64,000 nt of DNA, from the IMG/VR virus record IMGVR_UViG_3300032116_000147, positions 1 through 64,000 of that record, one strand, 5' to 3'. How positions within the stretch are numbered: the first letter of the stretch is position 1; the number at the start of each line of letters is the position of its first letter. The notes below the pieces were generated by a model. It was given only the letters and a program-made list of their open reading frames with translations. It did not search any database and had not been told where the DNA came from. The stretch is from a virus. Made by a program: the position numbers and the translations under genes. Of the stretch, positions 2,829 to 63,725 are shown piece after piece.

Positions 2829-3152
2829 ATGGCATTTCAGTATTATAATAGATATAACAATTTTTCAATTGATGGTAAACAAACTGTTGTACCATATATT
2901 ACTTTACCATCAAAAACTACCGATAAAAGATTTATATATAAAGTTAATCAATCCAGATTAGATAAAGTTTCGCAACAATATTATAATTCACCGACATTTG
3001 GATGGTTAATTATGATGGCAAATCCTAATTTTGGTGGACAAGAATGGAATATACCTGATGGTGCGATATTGACTATTCCATTTCCTTTAATAACTTCTTT
3101 ACAAGATTATAAATCAGCATTAGATAATCACTTCTTTTATTATGGTAGGTAA
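2829..3152 (+). CDS. 53: LysM-type baseplate wedge protein, gp53-like
   Basis: A 107-residue protein with one LysM-like module: after an N-terminal YYNRYNNF and a ITLPSKTTDKRFIYKV strand it has RLDKVSQQYYNSPTFGWLI, MMANPNF, then IPDGAILTIPFPL, the usual start-up, helix and closing strand of LysM-like baseplate proteins. T4 gp53 (a baseplate wedge subunit, 196 residues) carries this fold and helps join wedges around the hub; this copy is about half as long. ATG 2829 lies two bases after the previous stop, and the 3' end overlaps the hub gene by 11 bases (shared ATGGTAGGTAA), so the genes are probably translationally coupled. Placement beside the hub gene supports the assignment. Confidence 0.75.
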   Translation: MAFQYYNRYNNFSIDGKQTVVPYITLPSKTTDKRFIYKVNQSRLDKVSQQYYNSPTFGWLIMMANPNFGGQEWNIPDGAILTIPFPLITSLQDYKSALDNHFFYYGR

Positions 3153-55055: not shown

Positions 55056-55856
55056 ATGAAACAAAAAAACTCATCAATACCGATTAACCAAGAAGAAATT
55101 CAACATTACTTGAAAGATATTCGTAGAATAAAAGTAATGACTCCTGAACGTGAGAAAGAATTAGCCAAAATAATACTTGACGGAGACATTTCAGAAAAAG
55201 AAAGACAAAAAATTAATAAAGAACTTTTAGAGGGTAACTTACGATTTGTGATAACAGTTGCCAAACAATATCAAAATCAAGGTTTAGATTTTCCTGACCT
55301 TATTGCTGAAGGTAATTTAGGTTTAATGAAAGCGATACAAAATTTTGATTGGTCAAAAAATCTAAGATTTATCTCTTACGCTGTTTGGTGGGTTAAGCAA
55401 TCAATTTTACAATCTTTGAATGATAATTCAAGAACAATTAGATTACCTGTGAATGTTGTTCAAGATTTACAAAGAGCTAAGAAAGAAGTTGAAAACAAAG
55501 GTGGTAAATTAGAGGATAGGTTTGAAAATTTACCGTCAATTATTGATTTGGACATGTATATCAATGAAGAGGGTGATACTTTAGTAGATATACTTAAAAA
55601 TGAAGGGGCGGATATGCCTGACGCCAATTTTAACAATGAGGATATACTTAAATCAGAATTGATGACAATCCTTAATATATTGGATGAAAGAGAAAAGGTT
55701 ATTATCCAAGATTATTTTGGGATATCAGGTACACCAAGAACATTAGAAGATATCGGTGGTGATTTTAACTTAACTAAAGAAAGAGTTAGACAGATTAAAG
55801 AAAAGGCTCTTCGAAAATTAAGGAATGAGAGTTCAATTTTATTTGACTACTTGTAG
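55056..55856 (+). CDS. RpoD-like sigma-70 family factor
   Basis: 266 residues with regions 1.2 to 4. Region 2 is NLRFVITVAKQYQNQGLDFP, then GNLGLMKAIQNFDW and FISYAVWWVKQSILQSL, with the core-binding and -10-recognition helices intact. Region 3 has SRTIRLPVNVVQDL. Region 4 ends with a helix-turn-helix (TLEDIGGDFNLTKERVRQIK, then EKALRKLR) that would read a -35 element. Length and sequence resemble primary sigma factors of Bacteroidota and not T4 gp55, which lacks domain 4. It likely redirects host RNA polymerase to phage promoters. A terminator follows immediately. Confidence 0.92.
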   Translation: MKQKNSSIPINQEEIQHYLKDIRRIKVMTPEREKELAKIILDGDISEKERQKINKELLEGNLRFVITVAKQYQNQGLDFPDLIAEGNLGLMKAIQNFDWSKNLRFISYAVWWVKQSILQSLNDNSRTIRLPVNVVQDLQRAKKEVENKGGKLEDRFENLPSIIDLDMYINEEGDTLVDILKNEGADMPDANFNNEDILKSELMTILNILDEREKVIIQDYFGISGTPRTLEDIGGDFNLTKERVRQIKEKALRKLRNESSILFDYL

Positions 55857-55864
55857 AAAAAAGA

Positions 55865-55898
55865 AAAACCTTCTATTTATTATGATAGAAGGTTTTTT
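55865..55898 (+). terminator. Intrinsic terminator after the sigma gene
   Basis: 12-bp stem AAAACCTTCTAT (55865-55876) and ATAGAAGGTTTT (55885-55896) with an 8-base loop and a T-rich 3' side. It begins 9 bases after the sigma stop codon. The loop side contains TATTTATT (55874-55881), which matches the recurrent motif, probably by chance. Confidence 0.9.
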
Positions 55899-59822: not shown

Positions 59823-59830
59823 TATTTATA
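59823..59830 (+). promoter_or_regulatory. TATTTATA motif upstream of the 512-aa gene
   Basis: TATTTATA 12 bases before ATG 59843, in a 29-base gap. One of the recurrent copies and a candidate promoter element. Confidence 0.4.
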
Positions 59831-59842
59831 AAGAAAAAAAAA

Positions 59843-61381
59843 ATGAAAAACTCTAAAGACAAATACATCAATTCATTAGTTTCAAAATTAATTAATGAAA
59901 CTTTAAATGAGAAGGCAGACAGTTTAGTATCAAAAATCAAATCAAGTATGGATGAAGATTTGGGAGGTATGGAAGATTCACATCCTCGTTTTGGTAACCT
60001 TAGATTTTCTGATTACACAAGTGATGAAATTAAAGATATGTTAAGAAAACCAATGATTGAACCAATGGATATTACAGTTGATGACGAAGAAGGATATGAT
60101 GATGAAGATGATATGATGTATGTACCAAAAAGACGAAAGTCTAGTTTTGAAGACGATGAAGAAGATGAATATGATTCTTATGAAAATATGTACGAAGAAT
60201 TAGAAGAAGGTATGGGTATGGCTTGTGAGTCATGTGGTGGAAATTTATCTGAAGGTGAATGTACTGAATGTGGATGGTCTAAAGACTCAATGGAAGAAGA
60301 ATATGGTATAGAAACTAAATTTAGACCTGCAGGGTCATCATTTGACTATGTTCAAGAAGAAGATATGGAAGATGAAGAGGGTATAGACCAAGATATGTCT
60401 TCAGCTTATGACGAAAGAGTATCAAGATTTTGTGACACTGAAAGTGAAGATTATAATGAAGAATCTTGTAACTACTTGAAGAATGATTTTTTAACTGAAG
60501 AAATGAAAGAAGCTCTTCACGGTAAACAAAGAAAATTAGATAAGAACAAAAATAATAAGATTGATTCTGAAGATTTTAAAATGTTGAGAAAAGGTAAGAA
60601 GGAGACCAAAGAAAGTAGTAAACCTGATTTCTTAGATTTAGATAAAGATGGTAATAAAAAAGAATCTATGAAATCAGCGGCTAAAGATGTTAAATCAAAG
60701 GTTGCCGAATCATTAAAGTTAACTGAAGATGAATTAGTTAGTTTAATAGAAAATATTATTAAAGAAGAAAAAAAATCAAATATAAAAAATTCTAACACAA
60801 GAGGTTTGGATGTTTATCAAAAGGCTCACAGAGGGTCAGGTAAAGAAAATGATGATTATTTAAAATCTGTTGCTAAGAAAATGAAAGAATACTTAAAAGA
60901 CGGTTCTAAAGGTAAATATGATACAAACCCTGATATATTTCCGAAAGGTAATGGTGATTTAGCGAAAATGTCTAAAAAGGCTTATATCCCATCAGATGCG
61001 GTACAAGATTATACTGATAATTTAACCGCGGCAGGTCTTGAGAATTTAGATTATGATGCGATTCATCCAAATGAAGATTGGGTTACTGCTAATGTTGAAG
61101 GTTCTTCTAAAACAGGTAATAATCCTGATTGGGCGAATACTGGTAAATCTGATGTTAACAAAAAAAGAAATAAGATTAGAAAGGACAACATGTTAGCTAA
61201 AATCAAGAGAAAGGCGTATAATAAATCTCCTCAACCAGTTGTTAATGATAAAACAGGTGAAGACACATCTGATAAGTTGATGATGAAACTTGAATCAACT
61301 GAGAATAAGAAAAACGAAATATTATCAGAAGAGTTTAACCGAATGAAAAACCTTATGGGTTACAATAAAAAAACTCAATAA
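59843..61381 (+). CDS. Acidic protein with zinc-ribbon and EF-hand-like loops (512 aa)
   Basis: Highly charged throughout. Around residues 127-145 a CESCGGNLSEGECTECGW zinc ribbon is visible. Around 230-250 a calcium-type loop (DKNKNNKIDSEDF) and around 266-280 a second (DLDKDGNKKESM) follow the DxDxDG rule of EF hands. About 295-310 has LTEDELVSLIENII. The end EEFNRMKNLMGYN resembles a short tag in other proteins here. The C-terminal third is Lys/Asn-rich. A head-core, scaffold or internal virion protein is a fair guess from composition. It is followed by the promoter/terminator locus at 61382. Confidence 0.6.
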   Translation: MKNSKDKYINSLVSKLINETLNEKADSLVSKIKSSMDEDLGGMEDSHPRFGNLRFSDYTSDEIKDMLRKPMIEPMDITVDDEEGYDDEDDMMYVPKRRKSSFEDDEEDEYDSYENMYEELEEGMGMACESCGGNLSEGECTECGWSKDSMEEEYGIETKFRPAGSSFDYVQEEDMEDEEGIDQDMSSAYDERVSRFCDTESEDYNEESCNYLKNDFLTEEMKEALHGKQRKLDKNKNNKIDSEDFKMLRKGKKETKESSKPDFLDLDKDGNKKESMKSAAKDVKSKVAESLKLTEDELVSLIENIIKEEKKSNIKNSNTRGLDVYQKAHRGSGKENDDYLKSVAKKMKEYLKDGSKGKYDTNPDIFPKGNGDLAKMSKKAYIPSDAVQDYTDNLTAAGLENLDYDAIHPNEDWVTANVEGSSKTGNNPDWANTGKSDVNKKRNKIRKDNMLAKIKRKAYNKSPQPVVNDKTGEDTSDKLMMKLESTENKKNEILSEEFNRMKNLMGYNKKTQ

Positions 61382-61409
61382 TTCACAATTTAAAATAAGT
61401 TATTATAAT
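61382..61409 (+). promoter_or_regulatory. Sigma-70-type promoter inside a terminator locus
   Basis: TTCACA at 61382-61387, 16-base spacer, TATAAT at 61404-61409. The predicted start is near 61416, inside the left arm of the terminator hairpin, so transcripts starting here would lack most of that arm. Confidence 0.5.
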
Positions 61410-61443
61410 TTCTCCATAAGAGTTTCTTATGGAGAATTTTTTT
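61410..61443 (+). terminator. Terminator hairpin that contains the next start codon
   Basis: 12-bp perfect stem TTCTCCATAAGA (61410-61421) and TCTTATGGAGAA (61425-61436) with a 3-base loop and seven T residues. The ATG of the next gene (61429-61431) lies inside the right arm, so it is sequestered in any transcript that includes the whole hairpin. Confidence 0.85.
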
Positions 61444-61905
61444 AATTATATAACACAATCTTTACAAACCGAAGAAGTAGAAATTTGGTTTAAAAGCCAA
61501 AATATTTTTCCTGAAAAGTTAGAGTTATTTTTTGATTTTTTACAATCTTTAAATTTAATAATATCTGAAACCTATTTAGGTGAACCTGATTCACACAGTG
61601 AAACAAAAATTGTGATGACTGAAGATGATAAGCATAAACATTTTGTTTGGTGTTGGAATAAAGTAATTGACGATTTCTCAAAAGAAGAATTAATCTTTGA
61701 AAAAACAGGAGAACATTTTGATTATTTAAAATCTTTTTACGACGATATTTTTTATTTACAAAAAGAAGAAATAGTAAGAAAATCAATCTCAAAATTTTTT
61801 AAAGAACTTTTTGATTTAGAAAAACCTTTCACCAAATCAGATTTAGATATGATTGGTAATATCTATAAACTTTTAGATAAGAATATGAAAATTAAAAAAA
61901 AATAG
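61429..61905 (+). CDS. Acidic unknown protein started inside a terminator hairpin (158 aa)
   Basis: Aromatic- and Glu-rich, mostly helical (EEVEIWFKSQNIFPEKLELF, KHFVWCWNKVIDDFSKEELI, LYKLLDKNMKIKKK-type basic end). No family recognised. The start ATG lies in the right arm of the terminator at 61410-61443, an arrangement that would allow translation only from transcripts beginning within the hairpin. No other ATG occurs in frame before about residue 65, so the start is fairly secure. Confidence 0.6.
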   Translation: MENFFNYITQSLQTEEVEIWFKSQNIFPEKLELFFDFLQSLNLIISETYLGEPDSHSETKIVMTEDDKHKHFVWCWNKVIDDFSKEELIFEKTGEHFDYLKSFYDDIFYLQKEEIVRKSISKFFKELFDLEKPFTKSDLDMIGNIYKLLDKNMKIKKK

Positions 61906-61971
61906 TTTTTATTTACTATGATGAAAAAAAAATTATTTTTTAAAAGATAATAAATACAAATAAACAAAACA

Positions 61972-62154
61972 ATGGAAACTATAGAAAAAATTAAAACTTT
62001 AACTGACGAATTATCAGTTGACACATCAAAATTTTTTAAAGGTAACAAAAGCGCGGGTACAAGAGCAAGAAAAACAGCTCAAGAATTGAAGTCGTTGTTA
62101 CAAATTTTGAGAGGTGAAATTTTAGACGAAAGAAAAAAAACTGAAGATGCTTGA
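61972..62154 (+). CDS. Histone H1/Hc1-like small protein
   Basis: 60 residues: an acidic N-terminal helix (METIEKIKTLTDELSVDT), then the motif NKSAGTRARKTAQELKSLL at about 25-43, and a Lys-rich end. The motif (NKxAGTRARKxxxEIxxLL) is that of Bacteroidota Hc1-type histone H1-like proteins, DNA-binding chromatin proteins; the long basic tail is absent. It would be a DNA-bending or condensing factor, or an interferer with the host counterpart. The stop overlaps the next start (ATGCTTGA). Confidence 0.7.
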   Translation: METIEKIKTLTDELSVDTSKFFKGNKSAGTRARKTAQELKSLLQILRGEILDERKKTEDA

Positions 62155-62909: not shown

Positions 62910-63127
62910 TTGAAAAACTAGCTTTAATAACGGACTCTTTGGATAATGTTTATCCTGAAAGTAAAAAAATTATTGTTTTAGAAATGAATCAAAACGATTT
63001 TAATAATGCTAAATTCCAATTTAACAATCACAATTTAGTTGATAGACAGTTTAGAGTTGAAATATCAGGTGTTGAGTTTGTTTTTATTCTGGATGGGTTG
63101 TTGAATGTCTCATCAAGTAGTCTTTAG
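62876..63127 (+). CDS. Small acidic protein (83 aa)
   Basis: Overlaps the preceding gene by 34 bases. Contains a helix (NELVEKLALITDSLDNVY) and strands (KKIIVLEMNQNDFNNAKFQF, FRVEISGVEFVFILDGLL). No family recognised. Its 3' end overlaps the minus-strand gene by 44 bases, tail to tail. Confidence 0.5.
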   Translation: MGTNKESVNELVEKLALITDSLDNVYPESKKIIVLEMNQNDFNNAKFQFNNHNLVDRQFRVEISGVEFVFILDGLLNVSSSSL

Positions 63128-63725
63128 GAAATCCTTTTTTAACTAAAATTTCGTATAAAAATTTTCTTTGTGTTGTTGAAGTATCTTTTACTAAAATACA
63201 ATCCATTTTCCCATTATCAACTAAGAAAGTTTGTAAATTGTCCAAAAATCTTTCAGAATCCGATAAATTTTTCAAAGTGAACATAAAAAAAGAATCATCA
63301 TTTTGAACAACTATTTTATTATTTAATTTAGAAATTAGTTTAATTCCGTCTGAATTTATGTATTTTGATATAAATTCTATAAAATTAATTTTTAATTTAG
63401 TTTGAAAATCTAAAATATCTTCTTCTAACTTGTAAGCTTCAATTTTTGTTATTGTATAATCACTATCTTCTAACTCTACTTTTACTTGACGACCAAATCC
63501 GTCTTTCATAAATATTGGCATTAGTGTGTTTGACGTTTTTTCTAATAACGCTAACTCAAAGTCACATTTTTTACCATTTTCATATTTTTTTTCAAAATAT
63601 ACATCATTGGATTTCTCTATTAAATTTTTAAAAAATTCATTAGCGACTTTATGTTTTTTAAACTTATTGATTATTTTTTTTTTTGTTTTATTTTTAAACA
63701 AAACAATTAGAAAATTATATTCCAT
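63084..63725 (-). CDS. Unknown minus-strand protein (213 aa)
   Basis: Basic N-terminal half (KNKTKKKIINKFKKHKVANE) and a strand-rich remainder (VKVELEDSDYTITKIEAYKL). I do not recognise the family. The 3' end, read backward, overlaps the 83-aa plus-strand gene. Its start is 33 bases from the DnaJ-domain gene, which runs the other way, so the short gap between them must carry any divergent control signals. Confidence 0.6.
   Translation of the reverse strand: MEYNFLIVLFKNKTKKKIINKFKKHKVANEFFKNLIEKSNDVYFEKKYENGKKCDFELALLEKTSNTLMPIFMKDGFGRQVKVELEDSDYTITKIEAYKLEEDILDFQTKLKINFIEFISKYINSDGIKLISKLNNKIVVQNDDSFFMFTLKNLSDSERFLDNLQTFLVDNGKMDCILVKDTSTTQRKFLYEILVKKGFPKDYLMRHSTTHPE

Follow-up and report, generated by a model that had tools for sequence, protein, structure and literature searches.

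The closest described counterparts of the arrangement considered here are found in bacteriophage T4. Long early transcripts of T4 genes e (lysozyme), soc, 49 and I-TevI fold into a hairpin in which the initiation region is inaccessible. A late promoter is located inside the left (5') strand of this hairpin, and the resulting RNA, which is devoid of that strand, is translatable; the gene e-type arrangement also recurs in related phages (PMC3014915; PMC2988022). T4 mobE and segF carry an intrinsic terminator early in their coding sequence, the one in mobE stopping about 30% of T4 transcripts (PMC2988022). For Aeh1 mobE and T4 segB, a late promoter is combined with an RNA structure that makes the ribosome-binding site of a single gene inaccessible (PMC2988022). 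A comparable combination of promoter-like, hairpin and start codon sequences was analyzed here at positions 61382-61443 of a window, i.e. the whole 64,000-nt stretch of DNA under study, which makes up most of a 68,965-base virus record.

The 61382-61443 element and its genomic setting

All parts of the element lie on the plus strand. Directly 3' of the stop codon of an upstream 512-aa gene, a -35-like hexamer TTCACA (61382-61387) is followed after a 16-nt spacer by a -10-like hexamer TATAAT (61404-61409), which adjoins a hairpin composed of left arm TTCTCCATAAGA (61410-61421), loop GTT (61422-61424) and right arm TCTTATGGAGAA (61425-61436). This right arm contains the ATG start codon (61429-61431) and codon 2 of a 158-aa orphan gene (61429-61905, 158 codons), and at the stem foot a tract of seven T (61437-61443) forms the end of codon 3 as well as codons 4 and 5 (Phe-Phe). 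Re-checking of the coordinates proved this layout, as originally put forward in a sequence-only reading (TTCACA-N16-TATAAT, perfect 12-bp stem, T tract and right-arm ATG), exact to the base. Judged by the distance from the -10 hexamer, transcription is predicted to start within the left arm at 61416, the A of CTCCATA.

The hairpin as a whole (61410-61436) is a perfect 12-bp stem with four G-C pairs and an RNA folding energy of -15.2 kcal/mol (z = -5.2). It is the only perfect stem of at least 12 bp with at least four G-C pairs in the 64 kb, and even stems of at least 11 bp with at least four G-C pairs were absent from the five shuffles used for comparison. TTCACA-16-TATAAT represents the best promoter-like match of the region (11/12), where 22 such matches were found versus 22.3 expected in shuffles. 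As the promoter match is thus no better than chance, the case rests on relatives, and it was their conservation on which a chance origin of the element was rejected. A minus-strand terminator was discarded as well, since the T run is absent on that side, and the best Rfam matches to the element stayed far under the gathering thresholds.

With genes for a baseplate protein, ribonucleotide reductase, a DnaB-like helicase and its own sigma factor, the window belongs to a large tailed phage. The sigma factor gene (regions 1.2, 2 and 4; 55056-55856) is followed by a 13-bp hairpin (55864-55897), which was considered as a second nested element and rejected, being an ordinary terminator 3' of this gene. 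Most likely, the host is a Bacteroidota bacterium, because none of the 39 window gene starts examined displays a Shine-Dalgarno sequence, the NrdB protein is closest to those of Tenacibaculum phages and two huge phages, and host-type TTG/TAnnTTTG promoters are located upstream of genes in a 320-kb relative. Cellular homologues, sought as a further host clue in 84,980 cellular genomes, were not found.

The upstream 512-aa gene (59843-61381, plus strand, C-terminus ...KTQ*) gave no match in PHROG, Pfam or NCBIfam, and the corresponding ORF ends in xxTQ* in all 82 relatives checked. The 7-mer TATTTAT (59823-59829, plus strand) is found 13 nt 5' of it. In the 320-kb relative (the contig of L298), 89 of 200 regions upstream of genes contain this motif versus 8 expected, and the ATG mostly follows it after 4-6 or 13-16 nt, without a -35 hexamer being present; the motif also occurs in the window, e.g. 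upstream of 14281, 19131, 20087, 22467, 31574, 40133 and 59843. From its distribution, TATTTAT is probably a phage-wide promoter, which would yield leaderless mRNAs where it lies 4-6 nt before the ATG, and the copy at 59823-59829 is the likely source of transcripts reading through into the element.

For the 158-aa protein, hundreds of viral relatives were obtained, while none was confirmed in the 84,980 cellular genomes. Its model is an all-helical fold (pLDDT 89) without a fold match in the PDB, and searches for its function by sequence or fold returned one uncharacterised viral homologue as sole result. On the 3' side of the gene, a TTTACT-N17-TATTTT-like site (61912-61940), possibly a second promoter, recurs in relatives before an Hc1-like gene; in the window, a phage-encoded 60-aa protein (METLEQIK) with a Pfam match to Hc1 (histone H1-like) is located at 61972-62154. 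A TTTACT...TATTTT-like site is also found just 5' of the ATG of a 213-aa gene on the minus strand (63084-63725) and is retained in relatives.

Conservation of pairing, T tract and start codon

Relatives were collected in one search using the whole 158-aa protein as query and in two further searches in which the first 12 residues were omitted, so that the N-terminus could not bias the latter two. Each N-terminus-free search yielded more than 300 relatives in viral contigs, the best 80 of which were used. These are metagenomic contigs including many near-copies. The 119 distinct gene starts were reduced to 83 distinct element sequences; support in the protein family tree is modest in places. Whether both arms and the nested ATG are retained in relatives was a check proposed in the sequence-only reading, and they are: eight consecutive pairs, TTCTCCAT with ATGGAGAA, including the AUG, are formed in 83 of 83 distinct elements. 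For the pair involving the third base of codon 2, 73 elements have C-G, five A-T, four G-C and one T-A, which requires five changes on the protein tree, with codon 2 reading GAG (Glu), GAT and GAC (Asp) or GAA (Glu) by pair type. In L356, a neighboring T-A pair has also changed to C-G, turning codon 2 into GGG (Gly). Residue 2 has hence changed from Glu to Asp or Gly jointly with the left arm, and the gene start has stayed in the stem; inner stem pairs change even more often than the codon-2 pair. For a subset of 34 elements, the covariation score exceeded those of all 500 shuffles and of every slid register. In the MENNFF variants L247 and L334, three extra bases at the right foot are matched by three on the left, and the T tract is still positioned at the foot. 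Judging from these alignments, promoter, hairpin and start codon have been kept aligned with one another in evolution through paired changes in the two arms, and such compensatory changes through coding sequence point to selection on the hairpin even where the amino acid changes along with it.

The T tract is constrained at the nucleotide level, too. Codons 2-5 read GAG AAT TTT TTT in all 56 distinct proteins of the first search, without a single synonymous change, although within these genes Glu is encoded by GAG in 28% and Phe by TTC in 22% of cases. Synonymous variation is, in contrast, seen at codons 6 and 7 of these proteins, which indicates that the constraint spans the T tract and then ends. 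In 82 of 83 elements, the stem foot carries at least five T, usually seven; L262 has kept the hairpin and carries no T tract. A stable 12-bp stem directly followed by U7 has the form of an intrinsic terminator, and we infer from this sequence that hairpin and T tract would act as such. Intrinsic termination is plausible in this lineage, since 41 terminator-like sites were counted in the 320-kb relative versus one, four and two in shuffles. Termination may be partial here, as only four of the 12 pairs are G-C.

A true start codon downstream of the hairpin, which would have spoken against the nested arrangement, was rejected because residues 6-8 are conserved as protein, with synonymous changes. 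No other in-frame start exists nearby downstream of the nested ATG, and the region upstream of it contains loop indels, leaving 61429-61431 as the only plausible start. One correction to the earlier picture concerns the subfamily comprising L284, L287, L288, L292, L307, L314, L324, L328 and L356 (near position 2955-3000), which carries an extra ATG in the hairpin loop. Of the 11 loop ATGs, 10 share the reading frame of the nested ATG (MNSMENFF and similar). In the subfamily, about 4 nt separate the loop ATG from the predicted 5' end.

Predicted folding switch and competing explanations

Within the family, the -35 hexamer varies between TTTACA, TTCACA and TATACA and the -10 hexamer between TATATT, TATAAT and TATTAT, while their spacer is 16 nt in 69 of 83 elements and a left-arm A is found 5-7 nt past the -10 hexamer in 81 of 83. 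This conserved spacing places the putative +1 inside the left arm. TAnnTTTG, the -7 element of Bacteroidota host promoters, is absent at the element. A T4-type late promoter was rejected, as the element has no TATAAATA and carries TTCACA-16-TATAAT; an excess of TATAAATA in the 320-kb relative is only apparent, being the reverse strand of a TATTTATA motif. A general TTTACA-16-TATAAT promoter class was likewise dismissed, since window and 320-kb relative each have only two matches upstream of genes, the element included. The putative promoter of the element is nearly unique and of another type than both the host-type TTG/TAnnTTTG and the phage-wide TATTTAT sequences, so that the 158-aa gene and the 512-aa gene preceding it are likely under different control.

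Folding predictions of RNAs from each start gave the contrast that the sequence-only reading had proposed. Read-through RNA is predicted to fold with -17.5 kcal/mol on average and a median probability of 0.001 for an unpaired AUG, this probability being below 0.1 in 83 of 83 models. For RNA whose first base is the A of CCAT (61416), the predicted energy amounts to -3.2 kcal/mol and the median probability to 0.38 (0.73 for the window). With a start one base upstream of this A, the median drops to 0.011, and with two or more bases to 0.001. This steep dependence makes for a sharp prediction of the start site; a start 1-3 nt further upstream would, by the same models, leave the AUG buried, which counts against a switch.

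Taken together, the element is probably a compact RNA switch dependent on the transcription start site, in which a terminator and start-codon block for upstream transcripts is bypassed by a promoter inside the hairpin. Transcripts from the 512-aa gene would contain the complete hairpin, and its 12-bp stem with U7 would terminate them at about 61437-61443; in transcripts escaping termination, the AUG would still be paired and untranslated. The local sigma-70-type promoter TTCACA-16-TATAAT would direct initiation at about A61416 in the left arm, resulting in an RNA without TTCTCC that could form a weak 5-6 bp remnant at most. Due to this loss, the remnant would neither terminate transcription nor hide the AUG, and ribosomes would translate the local RNA behind a leader of 13 nt that has no Shine-Dalgarno sequence. 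This suggests that only locally begun messages can make the 158-aa protein, with the timing of its expression set by use of the local promoter. Folding and relatives thus partly support the switch as first proposed, whereas the scope of the terminator had to be corrected: being located 3' of the local promoter, it would shield the downstream gene, not the promoter, from upstream polymerases. The terminator class of the 320-kb relative and the absence of Shine-Dalgarno sequences from 39 of 39 genes were counted in favor of the switch, as was a report of mRNA structure modulating how translation is initiated in Flavobacterium (PMC6847099). Weighing against it are the few G-C pairs of the stem, the promoter type, unlike both the host-type and the phage-wide sequences and almost the only one of its kind per genome, and L262 with its hairpin devoid of a T tract.

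Plain compaction offers another, rather unlikely explanation, according to which the hairpin is an ordinary terminator of the 512-aa gene into which promoter and start codon of the 158-aa gene have been packed, burial of the AUG being incidental and without translational control. Terminators of the window and the 320-kb relative are indeed mostly located 3' of stop codons, this hairpin also lies close behind one, and termination alone would suffice for the T-tract constraint. Yet in 83 elements the nested AUG never lies outside the stem, a start codon in the right arm was found in none of the other terminators of the two genomes scanned, and the joint change of residue 2 with the left arm has kept the start within the stem. 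Conversely, the hairpin might, like that of T4 gene e, serve sequestration only and keep the AUG of read-through RNA inaccessible, with the T run merely encoding Phe-Phe. The predicted folding contrast is in line with this, and so is the T4 precedent of late promoters within the 5' strand of a hairpin (PMC3014915). Sequestration would, however, require neither a fixed TTT TTT, never replaced by TTC in 56 relatives despite the use of TTC elsewhere in the family, nor a T tract following the foot when the stem lengthens; both observations count against this explanation and render it improbable.

An inverted repeat over a promoter start site occupies the classical position of an operator. That the hairpin sequence acts as DNA, i.e. 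as a palindrome at +1 to which a dimeric repressor or activator binds, with RNA pairing being irrelevant, is nevertheless highly improbable and was rejected on half-site spacing, which is not fixed: the distance from CCAT to ATGG ranges from 5 to 15 nt with 39 changes on the tree. Such variable loop length fits an RNA hairpin and argues against a dimeric DNA site. Furthermore, G-T wobble pairs are present in the stem among relatives, the conserved T tract is asymmetric, and the codon-2 half-sites change as matched pairs to several sequences.

If the start-site-dependent switch applies, the element would be a compact part in which the position of the 5' end alone sets both transcriptional read-through and translation, and the orphan gene would stand out by its unusually tight isolation from transcription entering from upstream. 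A more far-reaching version, which we hold tentatively as a possibility, is that of a self-contained one-strand logic element conserved in large Bacteroidota-type phages. Here, the same 62 bp would terminate and silence read-through RNA and license only local RNA without a Shine-Dalgarno sequence, and in the loop-ATG subfamily the choice of start site would also decide on near-leaderless translation.

Comparison with known phage systems

As in T4 gene e and I-TevI, the initiation region is paired in RNA begun upstream, which is a prediction in the present case. By the conserved -35/-10 spacing, a local transcript of the element would start in the left arm and thus lack the 5' part of this strand. 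The likeness would be one of mechanism rather than descent and does not imply a sequence relation. In T4, the Shine-Dalgarno sequence and/or the AUG is hidden, whereas here the AUG itself is part of an arm and no Shine-Dalgarno sequence exists; the T4 late promoter reads TATAAATA, in contrast to TTtACA-16-TATAAT, and a conserved T tract, i.e. a predicted terminator, is added. A terminator hairpin early in a gene that restricts read-through is known from T4 mobE and segF and is predicted for the element. The consulted part of that source describes no promoter inside these terminators, whereas in the present element 62 bp accommodate an overlapping putative promoter, predicted terminator and AUG. 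Aeh1 mobE and T4 segB differ in being homing endonuclease genes with a Shine-Dalgarno sequence, for which the same part mentions no terminator T tract. A promoter-in-hairpin combined with a terminator in 62 bp without a Shine-Dalgarno sequence was not found described in the literature searched, mostly outside subscription journals. Since T4 genes e, soc, 49 and I-TevI already make use of the principle, the element is a variant of what is known from T4 and not a new principle. It would extend the promoter-within-hairpin principle to phages of hosts not using Shine-Dalgarno sequences, with termination as a second layer.
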